From contig JAKSLD010000024.1 of the NCBI GenBank assembly GCA_024401395.1, positions 1 through 43,501 on the forward strand: a stretch of DNA of 43,501 nt, written 5' to 3'. The position numbers and the translations under genes are program-made. Shown here piece by piece: positions 1,037-37,482 of this stretch. Under the pieces are notes generated by a model that searched no databases, was not told where the DNA came from, and saw only the letters and a program-made list of their open reading frames with translations. Within the stretch, counting starts at the first letter, position 1; each line of letters begins with the position of its first letter. The stretch comes from Bacteroidales bacterium (GTDB lineage: Bacteria > Bacteroidota > Bacteroidia > Bacteroidales > Marinilabiliaceae).

Positions 1037-1160
1037 CTACGCTAGACCTATACTACTCCTATACTAGACCTATACAAGACCTATACGGGGCCTATAAAGC
1101 TATAGACCTGCGTAGCTCCTGCTACCATAGAGCGTTAAGGTTGCTCGTAATTTTTTATTT
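1037..1160 (+). repeat. 11-bp tandem array A with conserved 3' core
   Basis: Consecutive 11-mers TACTACTCCTA (1051-1061), TACTAGACCTA (1062-1072), TACAAGACCTA (1073-1083) and TACGGGGCCTA (1084-1094), with degenerate in-phase units on both sides. The array ends in the core AGCGTTAAGG + TTGCTCGTAATTTTTTATTT (1131-1160), also seen in arrays B, C, D and E. It fills most of the spacer between ackA and the first GH28 gene. The last bases of the core, TTTATTTG, are one mismatch from a Bacteroidota -7 box and could contribute to GH28 expression, but that is only inference. Confidence 0.85.
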
Positions 1161-1224
1161 GCACACGTTATCACGAAAGGATATTTAGTTTATTAAATAG
1201 TAGAAAATATAAGCACATATAGTT

Positions 1225-2649
1225 ATGAAAAAAGGATTGTTTGTTACGTTATTGGGGTTGATGATCTTGGGTGCAAGAGTAGAGGCTCAAGATTATTCCA
1301 AATTATATGAAGGATTGCCTATTGAGGTAAAGCAAGTCACTCCTATTGTGTTCCCTGAGAATAGGGTAGAGATTACAGAGTTCGGGGCAGTAGGAGACGG
1401 TGTGACACTATGTACGCAGGCTTTTGAAAAAGCATTCAACAAGCTCAACAAGATGGGAGGCGGTCATCTTGTGGTACCTAAAGGAGTCTGGTTGACCGGT
1501 CCTATTGCTTTCAAGGATAATATTGACCTTCATCTTGAGAAGAATGCCATTATTATGTTCTCTTCAGACAAGAGCCTGTATATAGATGACGATAAAGATG
1601 CAAAGCGAGTTGTCGCTTGTATCAGAGCATCGAAGAGAAAGAATATCGGCATTACGGGCGAAGGTACTATAGATGGCAATGGTGCTCAGTGGAGACCAGT
1701 AAAGAGAGGTAAAGTATCAGATGTAGAGTGGAAGAGATTTGAAGCCATAGGAGGAGAGAAAAGAGATGACGGGCAACTATGGTACCCATGGAATGTGAAG
1801 TCGGGCTATCCAAATATAGCACAAGATCCAGTTTTACAAGAAGGAATGAGAAACGATCTAGTGCGTTTTACCAACTGCGAGAACGTGCTATTTGAGGGAG
1901 TGACATTCCAGAATGCGCCTAAATTTCACGTACACCCATGCAACTGTCTGAATGTGATTGCAGACGGTATTACTATCCGTTGCCCTTGGAATGCACAGAA
2001 CGGAGACGGATTAGATTTTTCAGATTGCAATGTAGGACTCATAAAAGACAGCACTATTGATGTCGGAGATGACGGTATCTGCATGAAGAGTGGAGAAGAC
2101 AAAGGTGCCAAGGCATTAGTAAATGGAGTTTCAGATATTCTGATAATAGATAATACCGTATACCATGCCCATGGCGGCTTTGTAGTAGGTAGTGAATCTG
2201 TCACAGCGATGAAGAATATAGTAGTCAGAGACTGTTCATTCCTTGGTACAGATGTCGGTCTGAGATTCAAGAGCGGTATTGGCAGAGGCGGAAAGACAGA
2301 GAACATATATATAAAAGACATTTATATGGCAGACATAGCAGATCAGGCCATTGTTGTACAATGTGATTATCAGAATCTGCATGCCGGAGCTAAGGCGCAA
2401 GAATTCAAGTTGCCAAAGAATCCGAAGAATGTTCCAGAGTTTACCGATATACATATAGACAATGTGGTATGTCACAGAGCTACGACAGCAATAAGGTTAA
2501 GCGGCATAAAGACATTGAACTGTGTACACGACATAGAGATAAAGAACTCGACTATTGTGTATACAAAAACAGGAGAAGATATTGACGCCGAGACCACCAG
2601 TGGCATTGTGATAGACAATGTGAAGTTGGTCAAAGACGAAAAAAAGTAA
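1225..2649 (+). CDS. secreted GH28 family polygalacturonase-like glycoside hydrolase
   Basis: Predicted to hydrolyse galacturonan or rhamnogalacturonan chains of pectin. A Sec signal peptide (about residues 1-21, MKKGLFVTLLGLMILGARVEA) exports it. The pectin-lyase-fold beta-helix starts with ITEFGAVGDG (about 50-59) and GIDGNG-type repeats follow. GH28 catalytic residues are present: N259-G-D261 (the family NTD motif with Gly in the middle), D282-D283 in VGDDGICMKSG, H316 in AHGG, and R347-F-K349. The 474-aa length is normal for the family. Exact substrate (homogalacturonan, xylogalacturonan or RG-I, exo or endo) cannot be told. It is separated from ackA by a terminator and array A, so it is probably transcribed on its own. 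The ATG at 1225 directly precedes the signal peptide. Confidence 0.92.
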   Translation: MKKGLFVTLLGLMILGARVEAQDYSKLYEGLPIEVKQVTPIVFPENRVEITEFGAVGDGVTLCTQAFEKAFNKLNKMGGGHLVVPKGVWLTGPIAFKDNIDLHLEKNAIIMFSSDKSLYIDDDKDAKRVVACIRASKRKNIGITGEGTIDGNGAQWRPVKRGKVSDVEWKRFEAIGGEKRDDGQLWYPWNVKSGYPNIAQDPVLQEGMRNDLVRFTNCENVLFEGVTFQNAPKFHVHPCNCLNVIADGITIRCPWNAQNGDGLDFSDCNVGLIKDSTIDVGDDGICMKSGEDKGAKALVNGVSDILIIDNTVYHAHGGFVVGSESVTAMKNIVVRDCSFLGTDVGLRFKSGIGRGGKTENIYIKDIYMADIADQAIVVQCDYQNLHAGAKAQEFKLPKNPKNVPEFTDIHIDNVVCHRATTAIRLSGIKTLNCVHDIEIKNSTIVYTKTGEDIDAETTSGIVIDNVKLVKDEKK

Positions 2650-2715
2650 CCAAATAATACAATTTTCGTATCAGTCAAATTGATATGTTGAATAATATAT
2701 TGGTTCCTTAATTGA

Positions 2716-5700
2716 ATGACTAACCGTAGAGTACACAGAATAGGACTTGATGTTGGCTCCACAACAGCCAAGATCGTGATGCTGGCAGAAGATGGCCAGT
2801 TGGAATATGCTCAATATGAACGACATCAGGCTAATCCTCAAGCCGTTGTCAAGGTATTTCTGGAGAAGATGTCAGAAATACTGAAAGATGATGAGTTTAC
2901 GTTTTCGGTAACAGGAAGTGTAGGCCTTGGTATGGCAGAGCGTTGTGGTTTGCACTTTGTTCAAGAGGTAGTAGCTGCGACAGAATTTACGAAGAAGCTA
3001 CATCCAGACGTTACCACTATTATAGATATAGGTGGAGAAGATGCCAAGATAGTATATCTTTCCGGAGGGCAAGTAACAGACCTCAGAATGAACGGCAACT
3101 GTGCTGGAGGTACGGGAGCGTTTATTGACCAGATGGCATTATGTCTCGGAGTAGAAGTCTCTGAGATGGATAATCTGGCGAAGAATGCCAAGATTATTTA
3201 CCCTATCGCTTCCAGGTGTGGTGTATTCTCGAAGACAGATATTCAGAATCTCATTGCGCGCAATGCTACAAAAGAGGATATTGCGGCCAGTATATTCCGT
3301 GCTGTGGCTGTACAGACAGCCAGTGCGTTGAGTCACGGCTGTCAGGTTAAGCCTACAGTCATGATGTGTGGTGGTCCATTGACCTTCCTACCATCGTTAC
3401 GTAAGGCCATAGCCGACTATTTCCAGCTAGACATAGACAAAGATATACTTAAGCTAGAACACGCTAATTACGTACCAGCGTGGGGAACTGCGATTACATA
3501 CGACGCATCGAAGGTATATACTGTTAAGTCGTTGACCAAACTTCTCTCAGAATCGGAAGTAGAGCGTGATTCCAGAGGTATAGAAAAGAAAAAATACAAC
3601 TATGCGGTTCAGATGCCTCCAGTATTTAAGGATGCTTTGGACTACGAAGCGTGGAAGTCGAAGAAATCAGAGAGCGACATACAGTTCGGCACGCTCAAGG
3701 ATTTGAACGGCAGACCTGCATACCTAGGTATAGACTCAGGTTCTACCACGACAAAGATTGTGTTGACCGATCCAGAAGGCAAGATACTATTCCGTCATTA
3801 TGCGCATAACGGCGGCAATCCTGTTGAGGCAGTGTCTGTAGGCTTGAACAAGCTCAATGAGCAGGCACAGCAAGAGGGAGTAGACGTAAAGATTGCGGCA
3901 GGTTGTTCGACAGGATATGGTGAGGACTTGATAAAAGCAGCGTTCTCGCTCAACTTTGGAATGATTGAGACCATGGCGCACTATGTGGCAGCGCAGAATA
4001 TCTGTCCGAATGTGTCATTTATCCTTGATATCGGCGGTCAGGACATGAAAGCCATCTATGTAGAGAACGGCATCCTGACGAGAATGGAAATCAACGAAGC
4101 GTGTTCGTCGGGATGTGGTTCATTCATAGAGACATTTGCGCAGACACTAGGATGTGAGATTACAGAATTCGTACAAGAAGCCTGCAAGAGTCAGACACCA
4201 TGTGACCTTGGTACGCGCTGTACGGTATTCATGAACTCCAAGGTAAAGCAAGTATTGCGAGAAGGTTACTCATTGAGCGACATATCAGCAGGTCTTGCGT
4301 ACTCAGTAGTAAAGAACTGCCTCTTCAAGGTGTTGAAAATCAAGAATTACGATGAACTAGGTGGAAATATTGTACTTCAAGGAGGTACGATGAGAAACGA
4401 CGCCATCGTAAAAGCCTTTGAGAACCTTACAGAGCGTAATGTCTACAGGAACAATATTCCAGAGTTGATGGGTGCATACGGATGTGCATTATATGCAGCA
4501 GAGCAGATAGCCAAGACAGAAGCATATATACGTCCGCTTGAAACCATTATGCAAGCTGCTAATTATGAGCTAGATTCGTTGCAATGTAAAGGTTGTGAGA
4601 ATCAGTGTCAGATTACCCGATACAAATTCCAGACAGGACAGAAGTTCTATTCAGGCAATAAGTGTGAGAAGATATTCACCAATGGTGCCAATGCCCAGTA
4701 CAAGGGAGTAAATATGAGTGAATACAAGTATCACTCATTATTTGATACACCAGACAACACGATTGCCAATCCGAAGTTGAGAATAGGCATTCCACAGGTG
4801 CTCAATATGTTTGAGGAGTACCCATTCTGGAAGTCGCTCTTCGAAGAATGTGGCTTTGAGGTAGTATTGAGTTCTACGTCTACATATCAAAACTATGAGA
4901 AAGGCGTTCACTCAGTAATGTCCGACAACATCTGTTTCCCGGCCAAGCTAGTTCACAGCCATATCTATGAGCTAGACACGATGAATGTAGACCGCATATT
5001 CTTCCCACGAGTAGTATATGAGCGAGTAGAAGATGAAAATGCGTACAACTCATTCAACTGTCCTATTATTATAGGTTATCCAGATGTTGTAGACAGTGCT
5101 ATTGAAGTCAAGACCCCAGTAGATTCACCTATTATTGCGTTCAAGAACAACGAGTTGCTCTTGAAGCAGCTAGAGGCCTATCTAAAGACCTTAGGCGTCA
5201 AGAAAGACACAGCCAAGAGAGCATTAGACAAAGCCATCAGAGACTGGGACGCATGGGGAGAAGGACTAAGAGCCAAGAATACAGAAGTTTACAACAAAGC
5301 GACCAAAGAAGGTAGGATGACAATCCTTTTGGCCGGCAGACCATACCATACAGACCCATTGGTACAGCACAATATAGCTGATATGATAGCCAAGATGGGA
5401 GTTGACGTGATTACAGAAGAGATTGCCAGAGGTGGAGCTGTGAAGTTGAAATCAGAATCACCAGAAGCATTCCATATCCGTCAGTGGTCGTATGTAAACC
5501 GCATATTGAACAGTGCGCAGTGGGTTGCAGAACAAGGTTCGCATATTCACTATGTAGAGATGACCTCCTTCGGTTGCGGTCCGGATGCCTTCCTTACAGA
5601 CGAAGTACGTTCGATATTAGGACGTCATGGAAAGAGTCTGACTCTGCTCAAGATAGACGATGTAAACAATATCGGTTCGCTCAAGCTCAGAGTACGTTCA

Positions 5701-6984
5701 CTCATTGAGAGTTTGAAATACGACAACGACAAGCATACAGAGGTAGAGATAAAGCCATTTATCAAGCCACAGAACTTTGAGGTAGGAGACAAAGAAAAGT
5801 ATACCATACTTGCTCCATTCTTCACAGAATATATGTCGCCATTGTTGCCATCGGCATTCAAGGCTATCGGCTATGAGTTGGTTGCGCTACCTATGGGAGA
5901 TGCAGAGAGTAACGAGTTAGGGTTGAAATACTCAAACAATGAAGTCTGCTATCCAGCTACAATTATTGTCGGAGACTTTATCAAGGCATTGCAAAGCGGA
6001 AAGTATGACTTGAACAAGACAGCCGTTACGATTACGCAGCTAGGTCAGTGTCGAGCTACGAACTATCCTGCATTGATAAAGAAAGCGTTCCAAGATGCCG
6101 GTATGTCGCAAGTGCCAGTCATTTCGATGGCGGGACTTGACAAGACAGAGAATCCTGGATTCCATCTTGACTTCAAGATAGCAGGCCCTATAGTGCTCAA
6201 TTCGTTGCTATATGGAGACTGGATATCAATAATGTATCATGCTACGGCGGTAAGAGAGATACATAAAGGCGAGGCCAAGAATATGAGAGAGAAATATCTC
6301 GAGTTAGCCAAGCCATTGATAGAGGCACAGCACTCCAAGCAGTTGATAAAGCTGTTAGAGAAAGCTGCAGAAGAGTTCAACACCATAGAGGTAGACAACA
6401 AGACATATCCAAAGGCAGGTATAGCGGGAGAGATATTCTTGAAGTTCAACCCATTCTCACACAAGCACGTATCAGACTGGCTGATGGATCATGGGGTAGA
6501 AGTATGTCCACCTACGTTCCACAACTTCTTCCTGAAATTCCTAGTCAATGTAGAATTCAACAGGAAGAACAAGATTACCAATCCGAAGTTGCCATCGTGG
6601 AGTATGGATTTGATATACAAACTTATTTACAAGAGAGTGCATAAGTTTGAGAAGGCAGCAAGCAAGTTCAGGTTCTTCGAGCCAGAGCCAGATATCAAGA
6701 CCATAGCAAAATGGGCAGAAGAGGTACTCTGTCTATCCGTACAAAGTGGAGAAGGGTGGTTATTGCCAGCAGAGACCATACAATATATCAAGCAAGGATG
6801 TAACAATGTGGTAAGTCTACAGCCATTCGGATGTATAGCAAACCATATTGCCGCTAGAGGTATAGAGAAGAAGATCAAGACACTCTATCCACAGTTGAAT
6901 ATGCTTGCATTGGATTTTGACGGTGGAGTATCTGAGGCCAATATTGCTAACAGATTACTGTTATTTATCAGTAATATGAAATAA
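2716..6984 (+). CDS. giant acyl-CoA dehydratase activase-related protein (two BadF/BcrA ATPase domains + DUF2229-like dehydratase region)
   Basis: A 1422-residue fusion. Residues about 8-270 form one BadF/BadG/BcrA/BcrD ATPase (LDVGSTTAKI phosphate loop, IDIGGEDAK, iron-sulfur cysteines C129 in NCAGGTGAF and C168 in SRCGVF). A second copy runs from about 336 to 600 (IDSGSTTTKIVL, DIGGQDMKA, ACSSGCGSF, TRCTVF). A Cys-rich linker (CKGCENQC, about 623-630) follows, then a long region resembling DUF2229 and 2-hydroxyacyl-CoA dehydratase subunits. Activases of this family use ATP to drive one-electron reduction of a dehydratase through a 4Fe-4S cluster shared by two subunits; here two activase domains in one chain may form that site internally. 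No separate dehydratase, CoA-transferase or ferredoxin gene is adjacent, so the substrate is unknown. Such giant orphan fusions are common in strict anaerobes. Confidence 0.88.
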   Translation: MTNRRVHRIGLDVGSTTAKIVMLAEDGQLEYAQYERHQANPQAVVKVFLEKMSEILKDDEFTFSVTGSVGLGMAERCGLHFVQEVVAATEFTKKLHPDVTTIIDIGGEDAKIVYLSGGQVTDLRMNGNCAGGTGAFIDQMALCLGVEVSEMDNLAKNAKIIYPIASRCGVFSKTDIQNLIARNATKEDIAASIFRAVAVQTASALSHGCQVKPTVMMCGGPLTFLPSLRKAIADYFQLDIDKDILKLEHANYVPAWGTAITYDASKVYTVKSLTKLLSESEVERDSRGIEKKKYNYAVQMPPVFKDALDYEAWKSKKSESDIQFGTLKDLNGRPAYLGIDSGSTTTKIVLTDPEGKILFRHYAHNGGNPVEAVSVGLNKLNEQAQQEGVDVKIAAGCSTGYGEDLIKAAFSLNFGMIETMAHYVAAQNICPNVSFILDIGGQDMKAIYVENGILTRMEINEACSSGCGSFIETFAQTLGCEITEFVQEACKSQTPCDLGTRCTVFMNSKVKQVLREGYSLSDISAGLAYSVVKNCLFKVLKIKNYDELGGNIVLQGGTMRNDAIVKAFENLTERNVYRNNIPELMGAYGCALYAAEQIAKTEAYIRPLETIMQAANYELDSLQCKGCENQCQITRYKFQTGQKFYSGNKCEKIFTNGANAQYKGVNMSEYKYHSLFDTPDNTIANPKLRIGIPQVLNMFEEYPFWKSLFEECGFEVVLSSTSTYQNYEKGVHSVMSDNICFPAKLVHSHIYELDTMNVDRIFFPRVVYERVEDENAYNSFNCPIIIGYPDVVDSAIEVKTPVDSPIIAFKNNELLLKQLEAYLKTLGVKKDTAKRALDKAIRDWDAWGEGLRAKNTEVYNKATKEGRMTILLAGRPYHTDPLVQHNIADMIAKMGVDVITEEIARGGAVKLKSESPEAFHIRQWSYVNRILNSAQWVAEQGSHIHYVEMTSFGCGPDAFLTDEVRSILGRHGKSLTLLKIDDVNNIGSLKLRVRSLIESLKYDNDKHTEVEIKPFIKPQNFEVGDKEKYTILAPFFTEYMSPLLPSAFKAIGYELVALPMGDAESNELGLKYSNNEVCYPATIIVGDFIKALQSGKYDLNKTAVTITQLGQCRATNYPALIKKAFQDAGMSQVPVISMAGLDKTENPGFHLDFKIAGPIVLNSLLYGDWISIMYHATAVREIHKGEAKNMREKYLELAKPLIEAQHSKQLIKLLEKAAEEFNTIEVDNKTYPKAGIAGEIFLKFNPFSHKHVSDWLMDHGVEVCPPTFHNFFLKFLVNVEFNRKNKITNPKLPSWSMDLIYKLIYKRVHKFEKAASKFRFFEPEPDIKTIAKWAEEVLCLSVQSGEGWLLPAETIQYIKQGCNNVVSLQPFGCIANHIAARGIEKKIKTLYPQLNMLALDFDGGVSEANIANRLLLFISNMK

Positions 6985-6992
6985 TTTTCGAG

Positions 6993-7028
6993 TATACGGA
7001 GTAACCTTTAGTGAGTGTATTCCGTATA
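6993..7028. repeat. inverted repeat after the activase gene
   Basis: TATACGGA (6993-7000) and TCCGTATA (7021-7028) form a perfect 8-bp dyad with a 20-nt loop, 8 nt after the stop of the activase gene and 22 nt before the next start. There is no T-run behind it, so it could be a weak terminator, a processing hairpin or an operator; the sequence does not decide. Confidence 0.5.
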
Positions 7029-7050
7029 TTAAATATCAAATCTTGGTGTT

Positions 7051-7485
7051 ATGAAGAAGATATTAGCTACAATATTCGTATTGGCTGGCCTATTGATGCC
7101 AAATATGGTAAATGGTCAGGCTGACGTTATCGAGTCGAACTGTAAGGCATGTTTCCAGAAGCCATTCCTTGCAACGAACCGTCCATACAGAGCGCTTATT
7201 ACAGGTGACGAGGTAGCTGAGTTCCGTACAACATTGTTTTCGGGTACTACATACCGCATTGCTGCAGGTAATGTTGAGAGTGACAAGAAGTACGTTATCT
7301 TCTCGGTATATGATACAGACCGCAATCTGTTGTTTACTAACAGTGAGTATGACAATGCGCCATATTGGGATTTCTCGGTAGACGGCTATATGGATTGTAT
7401 TGTTGAGGCGAGACTTGATGAGAGCAAGGCACAGTCGGGATTCGTAATCCTTATGACAGGTATCAAGCTCAACGAGTTGAATTAA
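7051..7485 (+). CDS. small secreted protein of unknown function
   Basis: 144 residues with a clear signal peptide (MKKILATIFVLAGLLMPNMVNGQA, cleavage near residue 23). The mature part has two cysteines in ESNCKACFQ and is rich in short beta-type segments (YVIFSVYDTDRNLLF, YMDCIVEARLD, SGFVILMTGIKL), suggesting a compact beta-sandwich in the periplasm or on the surface. The general shape is that of small exported Bacteroidota proteins, but no family is recognised. It sits 66 nt after the activase gene with a dyad between them, so co-transcription is possible. A strong terminator follows it. Confidence 0.8.
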   Translation: MKKILATIFVLAGLLMPNMVNGQADVIESNCKACFQKPFLATNRPYRALITGDEVAEFRTTLFSGTTYRIAAGNVESDKKYVIFSVYDTDRNLLFTNSEYDNAPYWDFSVDGYMDCIVEARLDESKAQSGFVILMTGIKLNELN

Positions 7486-7504
7486 TTAGTACATAGATAT
7501 TGAG

Positions 7505-7540
7505 CGAGGACATGGAGCAGATCTGTGTCCTCGTTTTTTT
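7505..7540 (+). terminator. intrinsic terminator after the small secreted protein
   Basis: CGAGGACA (7505-7512) pairs perfectly with TGTCCTCG (7526-7533), followed directly by seven T. It closes the plus-strand genes at the left; the next genes are on the minus strand. Confidence 0.92.
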
Positions 7541-7570
7541 GTGCATTATGAAATTCTATATTTGATATAT

Positions 7571-7640
7571 ACTCGGAGGGTAGTGTGTGCCTTAAGGGAG
7601 CATTAAGAGAGCGTATAGAGAGGTATAAGAGATTGAGGTG
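7571..7640 (+). repeat. 11-bp tandem array F
   Basis: Units GTGTGCCTTAA (7585-7595), GGGAGCATTAA (7596-7606), GAGAGCGTATA (7607-7617), GAGAGGTATAA (7618-7628) and GAGATTGAGGT (7629-7639), preceded by ACTCGGAGGG, which resembles the units of array C. It lacks the T6 core seen at other arrays. It lies in the convergent spacer between the small secreted protein and yigZ. Its unit is the same as that of array G at 15185-15239. Confidence 0.85.
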
Positions 7641-7654
7641 TATAGATAATAATA

Positions 7655-10650: not shown

Positions 10651-10713
10651 TGTATGTTCAAATGCCTATATAATGATGCGTTTTTAATATTCTATGTAAT
10701 AAAAAGCGGGGGG

Positions 10714-12642: not shown

Positions 12643-12646
12643 GGTG

Positions 12647-15184: not shown

Positions 15185-15239
15185 GTCTGCCTTAAGGGAG
15201 CGTTAAGAGAGCGTTAAGGGAACACTAAGAGAGTTCGAA
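15185..15239 (+). repeat. 11-bp tandem array G
   Basis: Five in-phase units: GTCTGCCTTAA (15185-15195), GGGAGCGTTAA (15196-15206), GAGAGCGTTAA (15207-15217), GGGAACACTAA (15218-15228), GAGAGTTCGAA (15229-15239). It is followed by an A-rich stretch up to the dapB stop, without the T6 core. It lies between dapB and lepB, both on the minus strand. The 27-nt segment 15188-15214 matches 7588-7614 of array F at 26 positions. Confidence 0.88.
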
Positions 15240-19387: not shown

Positions 19388-19470
19388 TATACTCGGGCTA
19401 CACTCGGACTATACTCGGACTGCACTCGGGCTGTATTCGGGGAAGTACCTTGTTCATCGCAATTTTTTAT
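19388..19470 (+). repeat. 11-bp tandem array C with conserved 3' core
   Basis: Units TATACTCGGGC (19388-19398), TACACTCGGAC (19399-19409), TATACTCGGAC (19410-19420), TGCACTCGGGC (19421-19431), TGTATTCGGGG (19432-19442), then the shared core GGAAGTACC TTGTTCATCGC AATTTTTTAT (19441-19470). It lies between the flavin reductase start and the trkA stop, both minus strand. Translations of this stretch in other frames give repetitive peptides but no plausible gene. Confidence 0.9.
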
Positions 19471-25521: not shown

Positions 25522-25549
25522 TTGTCTAAGAGTAAATATTTATTGAACG

Positions 25550-25579
25550 CAAATGTAAAAGAGTCAATTATCTATGCAA
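25550..25579 (-). promoter_or_regulatory. strong Bacteroidota-type promoter of the second GH28 gene
   Basis: On the minus strand TTG (25577-25579), exactly 19 nt, then TACATTTG followed by C (25550-25557). This matches the consensus in both boxes and spacing. It stands about 29 nt before the first start codon. Confidence 0.82.
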
Positions 25580-25620
25580 GTAGGTAATTTGCTTTATGTC
25601 AATTTATCCCCCTTATTCCG

Positions 25621-27042: not shown

Positions 27043-27044
27043 TA

Positions 27045-28064: not shown

Positions 28065-28092
28065 GGTTATAAGTTATGATAGTGAATAATGC

Positions 28093-30182: not shown

Positions 30183-30193
30183 TGTCTGCTTAC

Positions 30194-30237
30194 GGTGTGC
30201 ATTAAGGGAAGTATAAGGTTGCTCGCAATTTTTTTAT
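30194..30237 (+). repeat. minimal 11-bp element E with conserved 3' core
   Basis: GTGTGCATTAA (30195-30205) and GGGAAGTATAA (30206-30216) followed by GGTTGCTCGCAATTTTTTTAT (split as GGTTGCTCGC + AATTTTTTTAT, 30217-30237). Only two units, so it shows the smallest form of the family. It lies in the divergent spacer between amidase and methyltransferase, downstream of the amidase -7 box and hence in its leader. Confidence 0.75.
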
Positions 30238-30273
30238 TATCGAGCCATTTGAATCTGCCGTGTATTGTAGTTA

Positions 30274-30281
30274 CAAATTTA
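30274..30281 (-). promoter_or_regulatory. -7 box for the amidase operon
   Basis: TAAATTTG on the minus strand. No TTG at the expected distance. It would give a leader of 85-150 nt that carries element E. Confidence 0.5.
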
Positions 30282-30302
30282 TATCATTTTTGTGGAAATG
30301 GC

Positions 30303-30310
30303 TAACTTTG
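30303..30310 (+). promoter_or_regulatory. -7 box for the methyltransferase gene
   Basis: TAACTTTG followed by T, 25 nt before the start codon at 30336. A -33 TTG is not evident. Confidence 0.55.
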
Positions 30311-30335
30311 TGACCAAATATAAGGTTAAGACCAT

Positions 30336-31121
30336 ATGTTATCATTAATTGAAAGACATTATAATAAGCATAAAGAGGATTTGCGTCTTCAGAGGCGTCA
30401 TGGAATAGTAGAGTACACGGTATCGATGCACTATATACATAAATATCTTGAAGAGATGGGAGAGAAGTCGGGTATCAAGATACTAGATGTCGGTGCGGGT
30501 ACCGGCAGGTACACCATTGCCTTGAAGAACGAGGGGTATGACGCCGAAGCAGTAGAGCTCGTTCAGCACAATATAGATGTGATGAAAAAGAACGATGCAG
30601 AGGTAAGAGTAAGAAAGGGAGATGCGAGAGACCTGTCATTCCTTCCAGATGAGACATACGATATGGTCATATTATTTGGTCCGTTATATCATTTACCATC
30701 AGAAGAAGACAAGGTAAAAGCGCTATCAGAGGCGAAAAGAGTGACGAAGAGAGGAGGGTTGATATTGGTAGCCTATCTGATGAACGACTACAGCATACTT
30801 ACATACTGCTTTGCCGAAAACCGTATGTCAAAATTGATGGAGAGCGGTTTTGTGGACGAAGAATTTCATGTGAGGACGCCAGAAGGAGAGCTATACGACT
30901 ATGTAAGAATAGAAGATGCAGACAGATTGAATAAGAAAGTAGGGTTAGAGAGACAGTTGGTTTTCTCGCCAGAGGGGGCGTCAGATTTCATGAGGACGCA
31001 GTTGAATTACATGACCGACGAAAATTTCGAGCTATTTATAAGATATCAGATACAGATGTCGGCGCGGCCAGAAGTAGTTGGAGCTGGGTCGCACATTGTA
31101 GATGTTGTAAAGAAAGTATAA
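30336..31121 (+). CDS. class I SAM-dependent methyltransferase
   Basis: 261 residues with the Rossmann methyltransferase motifs: I, ILDVGAGTGRYTIAL (about 49-63); II, DAEAVELVQ; a loop ending GDARDLSF; and IV, YDMVILFGPLYHLPSEEDKVKALSEAKRVTKRGGLIL. The C-terminal half (about 150-261) is a substrate domain. The substrate is unknown; the LFGPLYHL motif is common in small-molecule methyltransferases of gut Firmicutes and Bacteroidota. It stands alone on the plus strand between minus-strand genes, with its own promoter box and terminator. Confidence 0.9.
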   Translation: MLSLIERHYNKHKEDLRLQRRHGIVEYTVSMHYIHKYLEEMGEKSGIKILDVGAGTGRYTIALKNEGYDAEAVELVQHNIDVMKKNDAEVRVRKGDARDLSFLPDETYDMVILFGPLYHLPSEEDKVKALSEAKRVTKRGGLILVAYLMNDYSILTYCFAENRMSKLMESGFVDEEFHVRTPEGELYDYVRIEDADRLNKKVGLERQLVFSPEGASDFMRTQLNYMTDENFELFIRYQIQMSARPEVVGAGSHIVDVVKKV

Positions 31122-31127
31122 AAAAAC

Positions 31128-31163
31128 AGAGAGCCAGGTTTAGAAGCCCAGCTCTCTATTTTT
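31128..31163. terminator. bidirectional terminator
   Basis: AGAGAGC (31128-31134) pairs with GCTCTCT (31151-31157). An A6 run lies before it and a T5 run after it, so it can serve the plus-strand methyltransferase and the minus-strand gene ending at 31184. Confidence 0.8.
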
Positions 31164-31183
31164 ATATGATATAGATAGTATTG

Positions 31184-31666
31184 TTATTTCTTTGTAAGGA
31201 GAGAAGTGACAGCAGAAGTAAGGATTGTAGCCATATCTGTTGTACCAGGCTTCTCGCTCTTATTGAGCTGGCCTACCAAGTCGGTAATATTAGTAATTGA
31301 CTTGAGGTTTACAGCGCTAGCGATGCTCTCAGCGATAGAAGAACCCTGAGACTTAGCCTCCTTTTGAGAATTACCCTGAGAAGTGAAGTAAGTAGTAAGG
31401 AGAGTACCTATAGTCTTAAGATCGATTTTGCCATCCAAAATATTCTTAACTGCAGCTATTGTAGTTGCTGTAGTAGTGAGGTTCTGGAGACTATCGAGGA
31501 GACCGCCGCCATTGTTGGAAGCTGCATTATTGTTATTGCCAGCAGCTGCTGTTGCTATAGTAGAGAGAGTCTCTAGCCAGTTAGTCTCTGGTTCTGGTTG
31601 TTGCTTTTGCATTTTCTGGCTCAATACAGAACCAGCTACTTTAGTTAGTGCATCAAATAGTCCCAT
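31184..31666 (-). CDS. low-complexity protein of unknown function
   Basis: 160 residues, no signal peptide. It starts MGLFDALTKVAGSVLSQKM, carries an Asn/Ala/Gly-rich linker (AAAGNNNNAASNNGGG, about 38-53) and then Thr/Ser/Ala-rich amphipathic helices (LQNLTTTATTIAAVKNIL, IGTLLTTYFTSQG, MATILTSAVTSLL). The pattern of short helices with an N-terminal GLFD resembles DUF937-like or other self-assembling bacterial proteins, but no family is claimed. Two flanking terminator or dyad structures suggest an independent transcript. Confidence 0.75.
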   Translation of the reverse strand: MGLFDALTKVAGSVLSQKMQKQQPEPETNWLETLSTIATAAAGNNNNAASNNGGGLLDSLQNLTTTATTIAAVKNILDGKIDLKTIGTLLTTYFTSQGNSQKEAKSQGSSIAESIASAVNLKSITNITDLVGQLNKSEKPGTTDMATILTSAVTSLLTKK

Positions 31667-31672
31667 AATTCA

Positions 31673-31738
31673 AAAGGTTTTGTAAAGTTATTATGGTTAT
31701 AGATACGATGAGATACCTTGTTTTGTTACAAAACCTTT
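31673..31738. repeat. 13-bp inverted repeat spanning the yjjG 3' end and the next spacer
   Basis: AAAGGTTTTGTAA (31673-31685) and TTACAAAACCTTT (31726-31738) are a perfect 13-bp dyad with a 40-nt loop. The right arm overlaps the last codons of the yjjG-like gene (stop at 31726) and the left arm ends 7 nt before the next start at 31666. A smaller palindrome, GTTTTGTTACAAAAC, shares the right arm. It may form an mRNA hairpin between the two genes. Confidence 0.6.
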
Positions 31739-32427
31739 AGAAGATCGGGCAAGGATTCGATAGTTTCAGTGTTCATGCCCTCAGCCATACAGTTGCGCGA
31801 ATTATAGAAGAAAGTACGTATACCATACTCCTGAGCTCCGTTTATGTCGTTATCGGGGCTATCCCCAACCAATGCGCATTCCTGTGGAGTTGCGTTGATA
31901 CGAGACAACACGATATCGAAGAACTCCTTTCTAGGTTTCATAAAGCCAATTTCCTCGGATATGAAAATCTGGTTGATATACTGACCGATACCGCTATTCT
32001 TAGTTTTTTTGTACTGGACCTCTTTGAACCCATTAGTTACGATATGCATATCATAGCCCTTCTCCTTCAGTGCGGAGAGGGTTTCGAGAGCGCCAGGCAT
32101 CACCTTATTCAAACGAGTAGTGGTATCATCGAGGTAGAAATCAGATATTTCCTTTGAGAGTTTCCAGTCGTTGAGTCCGGCACCCTCTAGAGGACGCCAG
32201 AAACGAGCGACTTTAAGTTGTTCCTTGCTAATCATTCCAACTCCGTACTGATTCCACAAGATAGAGTTGTGCATATCATAAATACGGTGGAACTCCTCGT
32301 AGGACTCGAACCAATCGGCGAGAGCGTATTTCTCCCATACCACGCGCATAGTAGCGTCGCTATTGACGGCAAAATCCCAAAGAGTGTGGTCTAGATCAAA
32401 CAGTATATGTTTTATCTTATTTATCAC
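31726..32427 (-). CDS. yjjG: YjjG-family HAD nucleotidase
   Basis: Haloacid-dehalogenase phosphatase; YjjG enzymes dephosphorylate non-canonical pyrimidine nucleotides. The 233 residues hold HAD motif I HILFDLDHTLWDF (nucleophile D in DLDHT), motif II in HIVTNGF, motif III lysine in GFMKPRKEFF and motif IV in ALVGDSPDNDINGAQEYGI, with a helical cap between I and II. It starts 10 nt after the SDR stop, so the two are probably one transcript. Confidence 0.88.
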   Translation of the reverse strand: MINKIKHILFDLDHTLWDFAVNSDATMRVVWEKYALADWFESYEEFHRIYDMHNSILWNQYGVGMISKEQLKVARFWRPLEGAGLNDWKLSKEISDFYLDDTTTRLNKVMPGALETLSALKEKGYDMHIVTNGFKEVQYKKTKNSGIGQYINQIFISEEIGFMKPRKEFFDIVLSRINATPQECALVGDSPDNDINGAQEYGIRTFFYNSRNCMAEGMNTETIESLPDLLKVL

Positions 32428-32437
32428 TATAAAATAA

Positions 32438-33202
32438 TTAATGACGATCTACATAATAAGGCATAGCCTGTTGTGTAGGCATGATCAGCATATCGTTGAT
32501 ACATACGTGAGAAGGACGAGATATGATGAATTCTATAGCAGAAGCTATATCATCAGCCGAGAGAGGTTTTACGCCCTCGTAAACCTTCTTGGCACGAGCC
32601 TCGTCGCCTCTGTAGCGTACGGTAGAAAATTCGGTATTTACCATACCAGGAGCTATAGAAGATACCTTGATGCCATATTTAAGAAGGTCGATACGCATAG
32701 CCTGAGTAATGGCGTCTACGGCGTGTTTGGTAGCGCAATAGACGTTACCACCATAGTATACGTGCTTACCTGCGACGCTAGAAAGGTTAATTATATGGCC
32801 TTCGCCATTCTCCTTCATAGTCTGAGATACGAGTTGAGAAATATAGAGCAGACCCTTGACATTAGTATCAATCATCTGGTCCCACTCATTATCGTCGCAC
32901 ATTTCAAAAGAATCATCGCCCAAAGCAAGGCCAGCATTATTTACCAGAATCTTGAGATGTTTCTTCCAAGACTCAGGGAGCATATCGTAAGAGTCGAATA
33001 CCTCATGTTTGTCGCGAATGTCAAAATTGAGAATATATGATTCGACTCCAGAAGTTTTTTCTATTTCGTTGCAAAGATCTTGCAGAAGAGGGAGTCGGCG
33101 TCCTGTGATTGCGATATTATAACCTCTTCTAGCGAGCATAAGAGCTGTTGCGCGTCCAATTCCCGATGTTGCACCTGTTACTATTGCTGTCTTTATTTCC
33201 AT
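32438..33202 (-). CDS. short-chain dehydrogenase/reductase
   Basis: NAD(P)-dependent oxidoreductase of about 254 residues. Cofactor motif AIVTGATSGIGRATAL near the start, NNAGLALG, catalytic serine in INLSSVAGKH and YCATK (Tyr and Lys) follow. The closest named group is the serine 3-dehydrogenase/YdfG-like classical SDRs; the substrate is not known. The frame extends upstream to 33283, but a -7 box at 33248-33255 and the loss of homology before MEIKTAIVTG argue for the start at 33202. It is upstream of the YjjG gene by 10 nt. Confidence 0.9.
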   Translation of the reverse strand: MEIKTAIVTGATSGIGRATALMLARRGYNIAITGRRLPLLQDLCNEIEKTSGVESYILNFDIRDKHEVFDSYDMLPESWKKHLKILVNNAGLALGDDSFEMCDDNEWDQMIDTNVKGLLYISQLVSQTMKENGEGHIINLSSVAGKHVYYGGNVYCATKHAVDAITQAMRIDLLKYGIKVSSIAPGMVNTEFSTVRYRGDEARAKKVYEGVKPLSADDIASAIEFIISRPSHVCINDMLIMPTQQAMPYYVDRH

Positions 33203-33247
33203 TTTTCTGATAGTGTCGTAATAATTCGTTCTTTGAATTTTACGCCA

Positions 33248-33255
33248 CAAAGGTA
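33248..33255 (-). promoter_or_regulatory. -7 box of the SDR gene
   Basis: TACCTTTG on the minus strand, about 46 nt before the chosen start at 33202. It lies downstream of the longer candidate start at 33283, which supports the shorter protein. No well-spaced -33 TTG. Confidence 0.6.
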
Positions 33256-33296
33256 ATAATGTTTCACGAAATAATGAGGGCAAGTCTAAATCAGGG

Positions 33297-33413
33297 ATAG
33301 ACCTATTCTAGACCTATAGACCTCCTATACTAGACCTATGCTACACCTATACTACACCTATACGAGACCCTTGCTAGACCTATAGAGCACCCTCGTCCAT
33401 CGTAATTTTTTCA
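33297..33413 (+). repeat. 11-bp tandem array B with conserved 3' core
   Basis: The longest array: TTCTAGACCTA (33306-33316), TAGACCTCCTA (33317-33327), TACTAGACCTA (33328-33338), TGCTACACCTA (33339-33349), TACTACACCTA (33350-33360), TACGAGACCCT (33361-33371), TGCTAGACCTA (33372-33382), TAGAGCACCCT (33383-33393), then the core CGTCCATCG TAATTTTTT (33394-33411). It uses the same unit as array A, 32 kb away; 18 nt (33322-33339) are identical to 1056-1073. It lies between the SDR promoter and the GH127 terminator. Confidence 0.9.
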
Positions 33414-33431
33414 AAATAAGAGGATAAAACA

Positions 33432-33464
33432 AGAGGCTGTGTCGGTAATTATGACACAGCCTCT
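33432..33464 (-). terminator. terminator of the GH127 gene
   Basis: GAGGCTGTGTC (33433-33443) pairs perfectly with GACACAGCCTC (33453-33463), with one more A-T pair outside. On the minus strand it is followed by a T-rich TTGTTTTA. It lies 55 nt beyond the GH127 stop. Confidence 0.85.
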
Positions 33465-33518
33465 ATAGTTGTATTAGGGAAGTATGAAAATACTGCTTAT
33501 AGGCAATAAACTATGGGG

Positions 33519-35966
33519 TTACTTGCCAGTTTCGAAAAGTCTCATGTGGTAAACACCACCAGCGTAGTGGCCATCATGAGATTTGAAAGTAACAGTAACT
33601 CTTTGTTTACCCTTCAATAAGTCGGCAGGGATAGAGTATTCCTTCTCAACGAACTCGCTCTTATTAGTAAGGTGAGCATTGTTACAAGTAGCAATTACCT
33701 TATCATCCACTACGATATCGAAAGTACGGTTGCCCGACTCATTACCCCAGTAGCGGCAGCGGAGAGTGAGTGCTGTTTTACCCTTAGTGTCGAGGATAAC
33801 AGAGAACCAGCCATTATTAGCGTGACGGTAAGACTGACCCTGGTAGAGACCGCGTTCAGAATTAGCCGACTGAAGCTGGTGGTCGACCTCAGGCTGCTGT
33901 TCACCGAAGTTAACCGCATCCACAGTGATAGCATCGAGATGTAGCTGTTCAGCCTCTTTACGTTTGATCTCCTCCTGGCGGGCATTCCACTGCTCCTGAG
34001 TCATAGTCAGCCAGTAGAACATATATCGGGAATCGTGAATAGCGAAGAAAGGTTCCAGTTCCATACCATTATATATATAGTGGAATGGTTTGCCATCTAC
34101 AGGTTTCATTGCTTGAAGATCCTTAAGAATCTCATCCTTATTACCGATAAGAGAAGGAGTTTCTGTAACAGGAACGAGGCTACCCTGAGCGATATGGCTC
34201 CAGCGACCATCGTCGGCAATAAGTCCGGTGAGGTCATTTGTACCCATTTTTTTACCGAGTACGATAGGACCGCGCATGATAGCGATATACTCAGGCAAGT
34301 TAGGGAGCTCCTCAACATGGACATTCATAGGGAGAGAAACCTCCACTACATCGCCCTTCTTCCAGTCACGAGTTATAGTAGCATAGCCGAAAGCGTTTAT
34401 TTCAGCTTTTACAGCCTGGCCATTGACCTTGACAGCAAAATTATTGGTCCAGTAAGGCTTACGGATATTGAGAGTAAATTTACGATTACCATCGATAGTA
34501 ATCTTTGTACCCTCCTCGTATGGGAAGTTAGTCTCCTGCTTAACAGTGACAGGCTCCTTATGGTGCATACCACGGCCGTGGTGACCAGGAGTAAAGCCCT
34601 GAGTAGGAGGCATCATTCCGCGACGGAAGCGGAAAGGAGCAGGTTTCCAGTTGAGTTCAGAATTAATGAAGAGGTTGACATTCAGTACAGAGTCACCCTC
34701 GTGAGTATATATGAACTGCGAATACTTACCATGATTCTCCATGCCAGTACCCACGCAGCACCACATAGCCTCGTTTGGTTGAGAATATACGCGATAGTGG
34801 CCAGGGCGAGCAGAAGTAAAGTAGACATAACCGCCATGGTCAGGGTGCTGAGTAGAGAGGATATGGTTGAAAGTAGCGCGCTCGAAGAAATCGGCGAGTT
34901 CGAGGCGAGGAGTCATACGGAAGAGACCCTCGGTCAGCTTCAGCATATTATTAGTATTACAAGACTCAGGGCCTTCTCGATCCTCGACATAGCTAATGCA
35001 ATCATCGGCAGAAGCAAAATGTTCGCGGCGGCTATTACCACCGATAGCCAAGCTACGAGTGTTGACAACTGTATGCCAGAAGAAATCGGCAGCCTTCTTA
35101 TAATACTTAGCCTGCTCAGTGCGGCCAGCGCGCTCGCAAAGTTCGGCTATACGCTGGTATCCGACAACCTTAGGAACCTGAGTATTAGCGTGACGGTTAT
35201 CGAGCATATCATTCTCGGCAGCCATAGGGTCGAGAAGCCATTTATGAGAGAAGCGTATTGCGGCATCGAGGTAGCGCTTATCGCCAGAAAAGTCGTAGGC
35301 ATCGGCAAAAACCTCGTCCATACCACCAAATTCGGTACCAAGCATACGTTCCATAGCTGCATCGTCGAGGTTTTCAATCTGCTTGATACCCCAATCGCAG
35401 AGAGCATAGAACATTTCGAGAGCCTTGCGGCTACCAGTATATACATAAGCATCGCGGAGACCGGCGTAGACCTTGTGCATATTATACCAAGGAACCCATC
35501 GGTTTTCGACACCAGTCACATCACCTTTGCGGAGGAGGTCCCAGCACTCCTTATCTACGCCACCGATATAGCCATCACCGTTAGCGTCCTGAGCCTTCTT
35601 CATTTCGGCTAGCATGTACTCCATACGACGGAGTAGCTCCTTGTCGCCTGTTGCTGCGTAATGGATAGCGAGGGCAGAAAGATAGTGACCACCCACATGA
35701 CCGTCGAGACCGATCCAGTTGTCGAAACTCTTGGCAGCAGGGAGACCGGCTGTCTTAAGGTATGGAGCGATAAGGCGATCAGTATCATACTGCTTAAGAA
35801 CATTGACATTAACCTCGCGAGCGTGAAGGAACGGGCCATCACCGAGCTTTACATCCTGAAGGTCGAATTCGTTAGGATAAAGTTTGCTTTGCGCAGAAGC
35901 AGAAACTGCGCAACAAAGCATGACTAACCCAAATAATTTTGTTTTCATTAATTGTTTGTTAAGCAT
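33519..35966 (-). CDS. GH127/GH146-type beta-L-arabinofuranosidase (DUF1680 family)
   Basis: 815-residue secreted enzyme predicted to release beta-L-arabinofuranose from arabinan, pectin side chains or plant glycoproteins. Signal peptide ends at SASAQ (about residue 26). The (alpha/alpha)6 catalytic domain follows; the zinc-cysteine site of the family is seen as E334-S-C336 in GPESCNTNN and the CC pair C403-C404 in MWCCVGTG (one Cys being the nucleophile), with E315 (NSRREHF) a candidate acid/base. A beta-sandwich and a C-terminal DUF4986/DUF6805-like region (about 690-815) give the length typical of the GH146-like branch. Start is 35966 or M7 at 35948. A -7 box lies upstream. Confidence 0.9.
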   Translation of the reverse strand: MLNKQLMKTKLFGLVMLCCAVSASAQSKLYPNEFDLQDVKLGDGPFLHAREVNVNVLKQYDTDRLIAPYLKTAGLPAAKSFDNWIGLDGHVGGHYLSALAIHYAATGDKELLRRMEYMLAEMKKAQDANGDGYIGGVDKECWDLLRKGDVTGVENRWVPWYNMHKVYAGLRDAYVYTGSRKALEMFYALCDWGIKQIENLDDAAMERMLGTEFGGMDEVFADAYDFSGDKRYLDAAIRFSHKWLLDPMAAENDMLDNRHANTQVPKVVGYQRIAELCERAGRTEQAKYYKKAADFFWHTVVNTRSLAIGGNSRREHFASADDCISYVEDREGPESCNTNNMLKLTEGLFRMTPRLELADFFERATFNHILSTQHPDHGGYVYFTSARPGHYRVYSQPNEAMWCCVGTGMENHGKYSQFIYTHEGDSVLNVNLFINSELNWKPAPFRFRRGMMPPTQGFTPGHHGRGMHHKEPVTVKQETNFPYEEGTKITIDGNRKFTLNIRKPYWTNNFAVKVNGQAVKAEINAFGYATITRDWKKGDVVEVSLPMNVHVEELPNLPEYIAIMRGPIVLGKKMGTNDLTGLIADDGRWSHIAQGSLVPVTETPSLIGNKDEILKDLQAMKPVDGKPFHYIYNGMELEPFFAIHDSRYMFYWLTMTQEQWNARQEEIKRKEAEQLHLDAITVDAVNFGEQQPEVDHQLQSANSERGLYQGQSYRHANNGWFSVILDTKGKTALTLRCRYWGNESGNRTFDIVVDDKVIATCNNAHLTNKSEFVEKEYSIPADLLKGKQRVTVTFKSHDGHYAGGVYHMRLFETGK

Positions 35967-36017
35967 TTATTCGTGTATTAAACAACTTTAATAATGTCAA
36001 GTTGTGTTAACATATGG

Positions 36018-36025
36018 CAAAGATA
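36018..36025 (-). promoter_or_regulatory. -7 box of the GH127 gene
   Basis: TATCTTTG followed by C on the minus strand, 52 nt before the start at 35966. No clear -33 TTG. Confidence 0.55.
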
Positions 36026-36108
36026 GTTGTTTTTGTTGAAAATAGGCGTTATGCAGTTGATAAAAGATGTTTATTAAGAACAGGACTAGAGTCTTTGTAT
36101 AATATGAT

Positions 36109-36116
36109 TATATTTG
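36109..36116 (+). promoter_or_regulatory. -7 box of ppnP
   Basis: TATATTTG followed by C, 30 nt before the ppnP start. A TTTG at 36094-36097 is too close to be the normal -33 element. Confidence 0.6.
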
Positions 36117-36146
36117 CAGTGAAATAATTTTAAATTGTAATCTAAT

Positions 36147-36428
36147 ATGTTCAAGGTTAATGAATATTTTAACGGTGAAGTAGTGTCGATGGCACTTGAG
36201 AGCGCTGAGGGTAAGGCAACAGTTGGTGTTATGGCAGCTGGAGAATATGAGTTCGGTACTTCTACAGTAGAGATTATGACTGTTATTTCCGGTGCATTGA
36301 CAATTCAGCAGCCAGGAGAGACAGAATGGAAGACCTACAAGAAGTTTGAGTCATTTGTTGTTGCTAAGGATGTCAAGTACAAGGTAAAGTGCAGCGAGGA
36401 TACTCCTTATCTTTGCTTGTACAAGTAA
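36147..36428 (+). CDS. ppnP: pyrimidine/purine nucleoside phosphorylase
   Basis: 93-residue single-domain cupin of the PpnP (DUF1255) family, which splits nucleosides with phosphate into base and ribose 1-phosphate. The whole length matches: FNGEVVSMALESAEGKATVGVMAAGEYEFGTSTVEIMTVISGALTI, EWKTYKKFESFVVAKDVKYKVKC and the ending PYLCLYK. It is followed after 49 nt by the esterase gene on the same strand. Confidence 0.95.
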   Translation: MFKVNEYFNGEVVSMALESAEGKATVGVMAAGEYEFGTSTVEIMTVISGALTIQQPGETEWKTYKKFESFVVAKDVKYKVKCSEDTPYLCLYK

Positions 36429-36477
36429 TAGCCCGATATACAAAGACATATTGAAAATAGGGAGTCCTATATAGATT

Positions 36478-37284
36478 TTGCCTATGAAAAATATCTTTTT
36501 GATGTTAGTTGCGATGATGAGTTCATTGCAACTAGTGGAGGCACAGTATAAACGTGTCGACAATATCTCGTATGCTACTTCGGATGATGCATACGCCCAA
36601 GAGCGCTGTAAGCTAGATGTTTATTATCCAGAGAATGTTAAGGATGCTCCAGTGGTTGTGTGGTTTCATGGAGGAGGTCTAGAAGGCGGCAACAAGTACG
36701 TACCACAAGAGTTGGAAAATTCGGGACTTGTTGTTGTTACAGTCAATTACCGTTTGCTTCCCAAGGCGACCATTGATGATTGTATAGATGATGCAGCTGC
36801 GGCTGTAGCGTGGGCGTTCAAGCATGTGAAAGAGTATAATGGCAGTGAGAAGAAGATATATCTCAGTGGTCATTCAGCAGGCGGCTATCTTATTGATATG
36901 GTTGGACTTGATAAGAAATGGCTGGCAAAATATGGTGTAGATGCCGATGAAGTTGCTGCGTTATTGCCATTCAGCGGTCAGGCTATCACACATTATAATA
37001 TACGTAAGCAGCAAGGACTCAGTCCGCTTCAGGCGACTATTGACAAATATGCGCCACTGACATACGTACGTAAAGATGCTCCACCAATAGTTATTATTTC
37101 AGGAGACAGAGAATTAGAGTTGTTCGGGCGATATGAAGAGCAAGCATATTTCTGGAGGATGCTGAAGTTGATAGGGCATAAGAATGTCTTGTTGTATGAG
37201 ATGCAAGGATTTGACCATGGCGAGATGCCACATCCTGCGTTCCATATATTGAAGGAATTTATTGCTGGGAAGATTATGAAATAA
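36478..37284 (+). CDS. secreted alpha/beta-hydrolase (BD-FAE-like carboxylesterase)
   Basis: 268 residues with a signal peptide (start at 36478 or at M3, 36484; cleavage near VEAQ). Catalytic features of the hormone-sensitive-lipase/BD-FAE-like group: oxyanion motif WFHGGG (about 62-67), nucleophile S133 in GHSAGG, D210 in ISGDRE and H247 in GFDHGEM. Enzymes of this kind deacetylate or deferuloylate plant polysaccharides, which would suit the pectinases in the window, but the substrate is inferred. It is 49 nt after ppnP and may share its transcript; the palindromic element follows. Confidence 0.88.
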   Translation: MPMKNIFLMLVAMMSSLQLVEAQYKRVDNISYATSDDAYAQERCKLDVYYPENVKDAPVVVWFHGGGLEGGNKYVPQELENSGLVVVTVNYRLLPKATIDDCIDDAAAAVAWAFKHVKEYNGSEKKIYLSGHSAGGYLIDMVGLDKKWLAKYGVDADEVAALLPFSGQAITHYNIRKQQGLSPLQATIDKYAPLTYVRKDAPPIVIISGDRELELFGRYEEQAYFWRMLKLIGHKNVLLYEMQGFDHGEMPHPAFHILKEFIAGKIMK

Positions 37285-37305
37285 TCTATTATTCCTTTTT
37301 AGGAA

Positions 37306-37406
37306 AATAGCAATTGAGGATATCCCCTACGGCAGAAGTTTACAGCCGCTCCCTGGCGGTCGCTTTTCGTAAACCACTGCCTCCGGAGATATCCTCAATT
37401 GCTATT
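37306..37406. repeat. 101-bp nested palindromic element
   Basis: A perfect 19-bp outer stem (37306-37324 with 37388-37406, arm AATAGCAATTGAGGATATC) encloses GGCAG (37331-37335)/CTGCC (37377-37381), GTTTAC (37338-37343)/GTAAAC (37369-37374) and an inner CCGC (37346-37349)/GCGG (37356-37359). It begins 22 nt after the esterase stop and ends just before array D. There is no T-run on the plus side, so it is not a standard terminator. The nested perfect stems look like a MITE-, REP- or structured-RNA-like element. Confidence 0.85.
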
Positions 37407-37411
37407 ACGAG

Positions 37412-37482
37412 GTGTAGCGTGTAGGTGCTTTGTAGGTGCTTTGTAGTATAAGGGAAGTACCTTGTTGCTCGCAGTTTTTTAT
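37412..37482 (+). repeat. 11-bp tandem array D with conserved 3' core
   Basis: GTGTAGCGTGT (37412-37422), AGGTGCTTTGT (37423-37433), AGGTGCTTTGT (37434-37444, exact repeat), AGTATAAGGGA (37445-37455), AGTACCTTGTT (37456-37466), then GCTCGCAG TTTTTTAT (37467-37482). It lies between the palindromic element and the helicase gene. The rest of the spacer (37483-37613) shows nothing recognisable. Confidence 0.85.

Follow-up and report, generated by a model that had tools for sequence, protein, structure and literature searches.

Arrays of 11-bp repeats in a Bacteroidales genome: the probable variable part of a clade-specific family of dispersed mobile elements

How can tandem repeats hold a constant length when their sequence differs from one locus to the next? 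The question is raised by a stretch of 43,501 nucleotides from a Bacteroidales bacterium (contig JAKSLD010000024.1; hereafter the window), in which short arrays of 11-bp units lie in the spacers between genes. A reading made from the letters of the window alone had noted that the unit differs between arrays, and had suggested local expansion by a mechanism that fixes length instead of sequence. We consider it probable – at roughly 60% – that dispersed mobile elements of a clade-specific family, with a possible autonomous form, account for the arrays, each array being the variable left part of such an element. The element would comprise successive 11-bp modules that follow a weak positional pattern, a conserved tail (consensus TT(GC/CA)TCGYARTTTTTT or a near form) and a short variable stretch; in some copies the tail is followed by a promoter-like stretch and then by a gene of 148-174 codons, and these copies may represent the autonomous form.

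Seven spacers of the window had been named as carrying arrays of 11-mers. Tandem Repeats Finder (TRF) reports period-11 arrays in six of them; the seventh, 30194-30237, proved to hold a single related element, with 11-mers up to a tail at 30219 and no array scoring at least 30. At five of the seven loci (tails at 1141, 19453, 30219, 33396 and 37465) unbroken 11-mers read into a tail. The features are as follows.

1042..1096, + strand: period-11 array with unit CTAGACCTATA (TRF 1042-1086, score 69, extended to 1096)
1141..1156, + strand: conserved tail TTGCTCGTAATTTTTT, with in-register 11-mers upstream
7592..7632, + strand: period-11 array with unit TTAAGAGAGCG, without canonical tail (TRF 7593-7632)
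15192..15233, + strand: period-11 array with unit TTAAGAGAGCG and leader TCTGCC, without canonical tail (TRF)
19388..19441, + strand: period-11 array with unit CTACACTCGGG/CTATACTCGGA (TRF 19391-19429)
19453..19468, + strand: second-type tail TTCATCGCAATTTTTT
30186..30218, + strand: 11-mers CTGCTTACGGT GTGCATTAAGG GAAGTATAAGG in the register of the tail, tandem array unclear
30219..30234, + strand: tail TTGCTCGCAATTTTTT
33298..33395, + strand: period-11 array of about eight units, of the CTAGACCTATA type plus a tail-adjacent 11-mer (TRF 33298-33384, score 83)
33396..33411, + strand: diverged tail TCCATCGTAATTTTTT
37421..37464, + strand: 11-mers GTAGGTGCTTT GTAGGTGCTTT GTAGTATAAGG GAAGTACCTTG (TRF 37420-37446)
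37465..37480, + strand: tail TTGCTCGCAGTTTTTT

The search was extended to an 828-kb sample of the window's genome (G000) made up of six contigs or contig parts, window included, with 298 intergenic pieces (47,654 bases) and 776,807 bases under simple open reading frame (ORF) calls. The expectation that period-11 arrays exceed chance was borne out: a tandem-repeat search of the intergenic pieces gave 35 period-11 segments, whereas three dinucleotide shuffles averaged 0.0. Period 11 dominates as repeat length, all other periods from 4 to 39 being represented by 0-5 segments each, except for the harmonics 22 (20 segments) and 33 (7 segments). Under the ORF calls there were six additional period-11 segments, against eight each for periods 9 and 12, and several of the arrays listed within ORFs look like elements beneath wrong ORF calls. 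Under a looser threshold and a different gene call, 45 period-11 arrays were counted in the sample, compared with 0-7 for the other periods between 7 and 16.

The units are not private to their arrays. The 51 strict arrays of the sample form 17 unit clusters, and four of these, with 11, 10, 8 and 5 loci, take 34 of the 51; for random 11-mers of matched composition the largest cluster averages 2.1. The CTACACTCGGG/CTATACTCGGA family occurs at 8 loci of the sample, and the CTAGACCTATA type of the first window array is also found genome-wide. Two unit types have 45 and 73 genome-wide matches (overlapping ones counted), the 73 being those of a two-unit TTAAGAGAGCG pattern with up to three mismatches. 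The TTAAGAGAGCG and GTATGACGTGC types mostly come without a canonical tail. Leaders of TTAAGAGAGCG arrays are TCTGTA in 7 of 17 cases and TCTGCC in 2 of 17, and GTATGACGTGC arrays end in a conserved, tail-like stretch with GGTCGCAAA; the tail elements may have an older relative in the latter family. At five G000 sites (C12:27373, C2:65463, C2:82791, C2:110444 and C1:213229) the GTATGACGTGC array is followed by a conserved stretch in 11-bp phase (TGTTTGGAGGG...GTATTACTGGGGAAAGTATGGTCGCAAA).

Two tail types dominate G000, TTGCTCG with 101 exact copies and TTCATCG with 135, and a reversed control pattern for both types gave no match in that genome. Exact tails of the two types number 139 and 12 in genome G065, 48 and 44 in G066, and 38 and 19 in G067: 57-236 tails per genome in four species of one genus, whereas none of the remaining 67 of the 71 family genomes has more than one. 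By eye, the lone matches in G031, G034 and G055 lack 11-mer structure, and the reversed control has matches in a few other genomes of the family (G016, G018 and G020; G035 and G042 for the second type).

The arrays are locked in phase to the tail. When 81 elements are aligned by their tails, a degenerate pattern of approximately S-W-R-S-W-H-H-N-W-K-K repeats upstream and weakens with distance; the tail columns of this alignment are conserved through selection by the search pattern, while the upstream columns are free of that bias. Upstream of 226 tails the correlation of column composition is 0.64 at lag 11 and 0.68 at lag 22, compared with -0.20 to 0.16 at the other lags between 4 and 25. Of 15 same-strand tail pairs less than 400 bp apart in the G000 sample, 14 have a spacing divisible by 11 (the exception being 89), as do all six such pairs in the G065 sample; among the matches listed, two tail pairs in G066, at 92 and 104 bp, break the rule. 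This spacing indicates that whole elements, T-run included, are mostly made in 11-bp steps.

Most tail copies end in six or more T, as would be expected if the T-run marked the 3' end of intrinsic-terminator or small-RNA transcripts that include the arrays. By eye, however, no hairpin precedes the T-run in the aligned copies, and the window has no Rfam match at gathering thresholds. Nor do the tails lie as terminators do: at tandem genes 13 run along and 14 against the direction of the genes, and only 8 of the 59 intergenic tails (10 more fall within ORF calls of at least 100 aa) lie between convergent genes. We give this explanation very little credence. Beyond the T-run a search for conserved sequence found a weak purine bias at most.

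The same unit occurs at different loci and is missing from orthologous sites, the general pattern of a transposable element. In G065, G066 and G067 the orthologous spacer is cleanly empty of the window element at 30194-30237; an element of G067, with flanks 91-93% identical in G000, is absent from both G000 and G065; and the G000 element near C1:249298 is absent from the orthologous site of G065. Across 53 gene pairs conserved between G000 and G065, with spacers of at least 60 bp, the tail is present in G000 only in six, in G065 only in one, in both in one and in neither in 45, and spacers with a G000-only tail have a median length of 399 bp in G000 vs 146.5 bp in G065. For seven gene pairs shared between G065 and stretches of G067 or G066 the tail is in G065 only in two, in the other genome only in one and in neither in four. 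An earlier ortholog comparison of low overlap (12 gene pairs) contained no elements, and the comparison of G000 with the G067 and G066 stretches yielded no gene pairs. Recurring unit types, a positional pattern locked to the tail and three elements missing from orthologous sites thus speak against independent local expansion, and indicate that the arrays spread in good part by dispersal of related copies.

Insertion might also account for the arrays more directly, as piled-up footprints in which each insertion or excision leaves an 11-bp copy of the local target. This would yield constant length with locus-specific sequence, and one empty-site comparison offers a candidate duplication of about 12 bp. 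The three empty-site comparisons together, however, give candidates of about 6, 12 and 20 bp, with no constant length, and the units are not local, the four families above occupying 5-11 loci each. Because unit types recur across loci we reject target duplications as the main origin of the arrays and regard the idea as very improbable.

Plain slippage or unequal exchange in ancient minisatellites, scattered passively by rearrangement and requiring no dedicated enzyme, has left typical signs: two units are altered alike in a paralogous array copy, and tandem blocks of 44-88 bp are present. On its own it leaves unexplained the tail at hundreds of loci, the absences from orthologous sites and a clade-specific gene linked to the tail (described below), and periods other than 11 are not elevated. 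As a complete account we consider it distinctly unlikely.

A separate observation concerns a segment of about 9 kb in G000 (L083:10402-19345, on C12), pieces of which are 88-97% identical to G066 (L256, L261, L263, L264), while the neighbouring 10 kb is about 77% identical; the difference suggests recent transfer. Part of the segment is duplicated in G000 around tail elements.

The proposal that length is fixed over sequence finds support at one locus. At the single distant orthologous locus that is informative for comparing array with flank (G000/G065), the four units nearest the tail agree at 20 of 44 positions and contain no indel; the next unit out, the fifth, agrees at 10 of 11 and the 110 bp beyond it at 86 of 110. 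From the tail onward 395 of 400 bp are identical, and the break falls precisely at the tail start. At L310/B45b the high identity on the right side extends past the gene, to +720. Homology of gene units at other loci likewise starts at the tail start (G000_L310/G065_B23a and G000_L324/G065_B23a), and in other gene-unit pairs it starts 6-75 bp upstream of the tail. Two histories would fit, replacement of the tail and downstream sequence as far as the tail's left edge or a rewriting of the array; in both, the tail start is a boundary. At a closer G066 locus (93% identical) the array is little altered, so change in the arrays is not extremely fast.

Some of the tails stand before a multicopy gene whose product, of 148-174 aa, belongs to no known family, and the tail lies just upstream of the gene's start region. 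In 16 of the 22 G000 copies examined (26 matches in all) there is a same-strand tail 60-110 bp upstream, compared with a background of 17 in 572 genes of the G000 sample with a tail within 150 bp (Fisher p 8e-18). Near-identical units of tail and gene are found at different G000 loci (93.2% over 650 bp, 95.8% over 698 bp and 95.7% over 782 bp). No inverted repeat is seen by eye at the ends of these dispersed units, and the element ends are not sharply defined. There is no general sharp 3' boundary at the stop codon, the identity between L325 and L326 continuing 140 bp further, and 3 of 16 gene-bearing copies have a candidate flanking repeat, two of them doubtful. Downstream of one copy of the gene (L308) lies a 19-bp tandem repeat (GTAGTGGGGCTAGGAGGAA), whose period is unlike the rest.

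Gene and tail share a distribution. A profile built from G000, G065 and G066 members (none from G067) matches 26, 20, 16 and 10 times in the tail-rich four; G063 and G064 give a single weak match apiece, and the other 65 of the 71 family genomes none. In an order-wide draw of 295 genomes that does not include G065-G067, the profile matches G000 alone. A longer tail pattern, run against an order-wide draw of 393 genomes, gave 89 matches in G000 and one in one other genome. With a stricter pattern a scan of species genomes, which may omit records of the window's own genome, found matches only in three metagenome-assembled genomes: JAUNDI01 (Bacteroidia, S22M_St_71), and JAKSLE01 and JAKSLC01 (both Bacteroidales, from horse faeces). 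A virus-borne source was considered and set aside: viral contigs contain five tail matches, without 11-mer structure by eye, and none to the longer pattern, while the gene profile has no relative among viral contigs, nor a 168-aa member among phage and plasmid collections.

Period-11 arrays number five in 357 kb of G065 and two in 115 kb of G067, fewer per base than in G000. One was found in a 20-kb sample of G063 and none in samples of 10-20 kb from five other members of the genus. The 100-kb sample of G055 and the 80-kb sample of G059 contain no period-11 arrays, and 10 and 6 period-7 arrays, respectively; G000 itself holds a few separate 7-bp arrays. The preferred repeat length therefore seems to vary within the genus. 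The 7-bp arrays of G055 (L238, L239) and G059 (L240-L242) are intergenic and combine a constant period with varied units (AATTNNN, TACTCTT); several of those in G055 precede a dispersed repeat with the form TGTCATYCTGAGCGNAGCGAAGRATC.

In a further explanation the arrays would be binding platforms for a multicopy, clade-specific family of DNA-binding proteins – perhaps the 148-174-aa proteins themselves – that polymerise at one protomer per 11 bp. Paralogues of differing specificity would account for the unit types, and tails close to promoters would be operators or promoter modules. The position of the tail just upstream of the family's own start region fits this idea, as does the finding that 24 of the 59 intergenic tails lie between divergent genes, which cover 22% of intergenic bases. 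TAnnTTTG is a -7-like motif of Bacteroides promoters. It occurs within 110 bp downstream, on the same strand, of 33 of 125 tails, compared with 7 of 125 in an upstream window and 1 of 125 on the opposite strand, although a T-rich tail may favour the same strand and part of these tails precede the linked gene. The motif suggests that the elements also influence or exploit transcription, with the T-rich tail and linked gene perhaps explaining part of the motif excess. Constant length would suit a polymer too, as the available part of one study proposes for other constant-size repeats (PMC8161180). Against fixed operators stand the absences from orthologous sites, which would be unexpected (mobile elements, though, can carry operators), and the orthologous locus at which most of the unit sequence was replaced. 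Binding platforms are a possibility to be taken seriously, albeit an unlikely one.

Mobile elements remain our preferred reading, and a mechanism can be sketched. The gene product or a partner would move the elements, reading them in 11-bp steps; units would be gained, lost and exchanged as the hundreds of copies undergo slippage and recombine with one another; and copies out of register would be disfavoured. If so, length would stay fixed while sequence drifts. A bolder version is that the unit of tail and gene is a new minimal mobile element, whose protein is an undescribed transposase or recombinase working in 11-bp quanta – close to one helical turn – and writing, copying or trimming arrays in trans at hundreds of tails. 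This we regard as speculative and rather unlikely. For the linked proteins no convincing match to any known enzyme emerged, and a fold comparison gave no convincing relative, the predicted model being weak and silent on fold novelty. Several hits were set aside as chance: Pfam Defensin_3 (E 0.0028, 18.3 bits vs a cut-off of 18, over 17 residues in 1 of 13 members), Pfam DBINO (E 0.0055, 3 of 13 members), PADLOC DruK (E 0.0037, 1 of 13 members), PHROG endonuclease VII (E 0.058) and PDB 2pgw (E 0.057).

How do these elements relate to those already described? Repetitive extragenic palindromic (REP) elements are short and non-autonomous, and their mobilisation in trans is ascribed to a small protein, the RAYT transposase; they are palindromic and bear a GTAG or CGTC tag, whereas the present elements show no hairpin by eye. 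A RAYT/REP system was rejected, G000 (98% complete) having no match to Y1_Tnp (PF01797) at E 1e-3; across the genus PF01797 has matches in 5 of 15 genomes, including one in tail-rich G065.

Porphyromonas belongs to the Bacteroidales. In P. gingivalis the BrickBuilt miniature inverted-repeat transposable element (MITE) has a 23-nt unit, 19 copies in strain ATCC 33277 and, according to the available part of its description, small terminal inverted repeats resembling those of resident insertion sequences; it too is dispersed, intergenic and composed of a minisatellite with a conserved tail, and it has promoter activity (PMC4596501). The elements studied here have an 11-bp unit instead of one of 23 nt, no recognised terminal inverted repeats and hundreds of tails.

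Heptamer repeats of cyanobacteria are known as short tandemly repeated repetitive (STRR) sequences. TAACTGA heptamers of Beggiatoaceae, cyanobacteria and some Bacteroidetes likewise form short intergenic tandem arrays of fixed length at many loci, with function and spread given as unknown, but the unit is 7 bp, the sequence is a single one in Beggiatoaceae, and the sections available describe no tail or linked gene (PMC4679880). Closest in kind are the constant-size, variable-sequence repeats termed enigmatic in bacteria, of 20-21 nt (20-23 in other groups) and 52 nt. In these also one length dominates, sequence differs between families, the repeats are species-specific, their function is unknown and – stated for the 52-nt class – length is no multiple of three; the accessible text describes no tail, linked gene family or attached protein (PMC8161180). 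The Bacteroidales arrays differ in their 11-bp unit and in being phase-locked to a tail that is itself linked to a multicopy gene.

The sequence-only reading knew of no named Bacteroidota repeat of this form, and we found no description of such 11-bp arrays in the open-licence PubMed Central literature. The kind of repeat, by contrast, is already known, since constant-length, variable-sequence repeats were published earlier from other bacteria, as the available part of that work shows (PMC8161180). Within the reach of our searches, what is new is the 11-bp form, together with the tail, the linked gene and the mobility.

The setting of the arrays is otherwise ordinary. Pfam assigns the window genes to acetate kinase, GH28, a BcrAD/BadFG ATPase with DUF2229, UPF0029, signal peptidase, a methyltransferase, a short-chain dehydrogenase, GH127 and a UvrD-like helicase with an exonuclease domain; 1 of 10 proteins scanned (7051-7482) has no Pfam match. 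Within window positions 37380-37415, directly 5' of the array, lies GATATYCTCAATTRCTMTTACGRGG, which is shared with L080; there, by eye, it resembles an arm of an inverted repeat that encloses a hairpin-like stretch.

We know of no earlier enzyme that explains tandem repeats of fixed length and free sequence; one working in 11-bp quanta, if real, would explain such repeats in some bacteria. The present system supplies handles – the conserved tail, elements present in one species and missing from its relatives, a co-distributed gene family and an orthologous locus altered without change in length – through which the question of fixed-length repeats becomes testable. Should the linked protein move the elements, it would be a new small enzyme of mobile elements; should it bind them and no more, it would represent a new chromosome-wide regulatory or packaging family.
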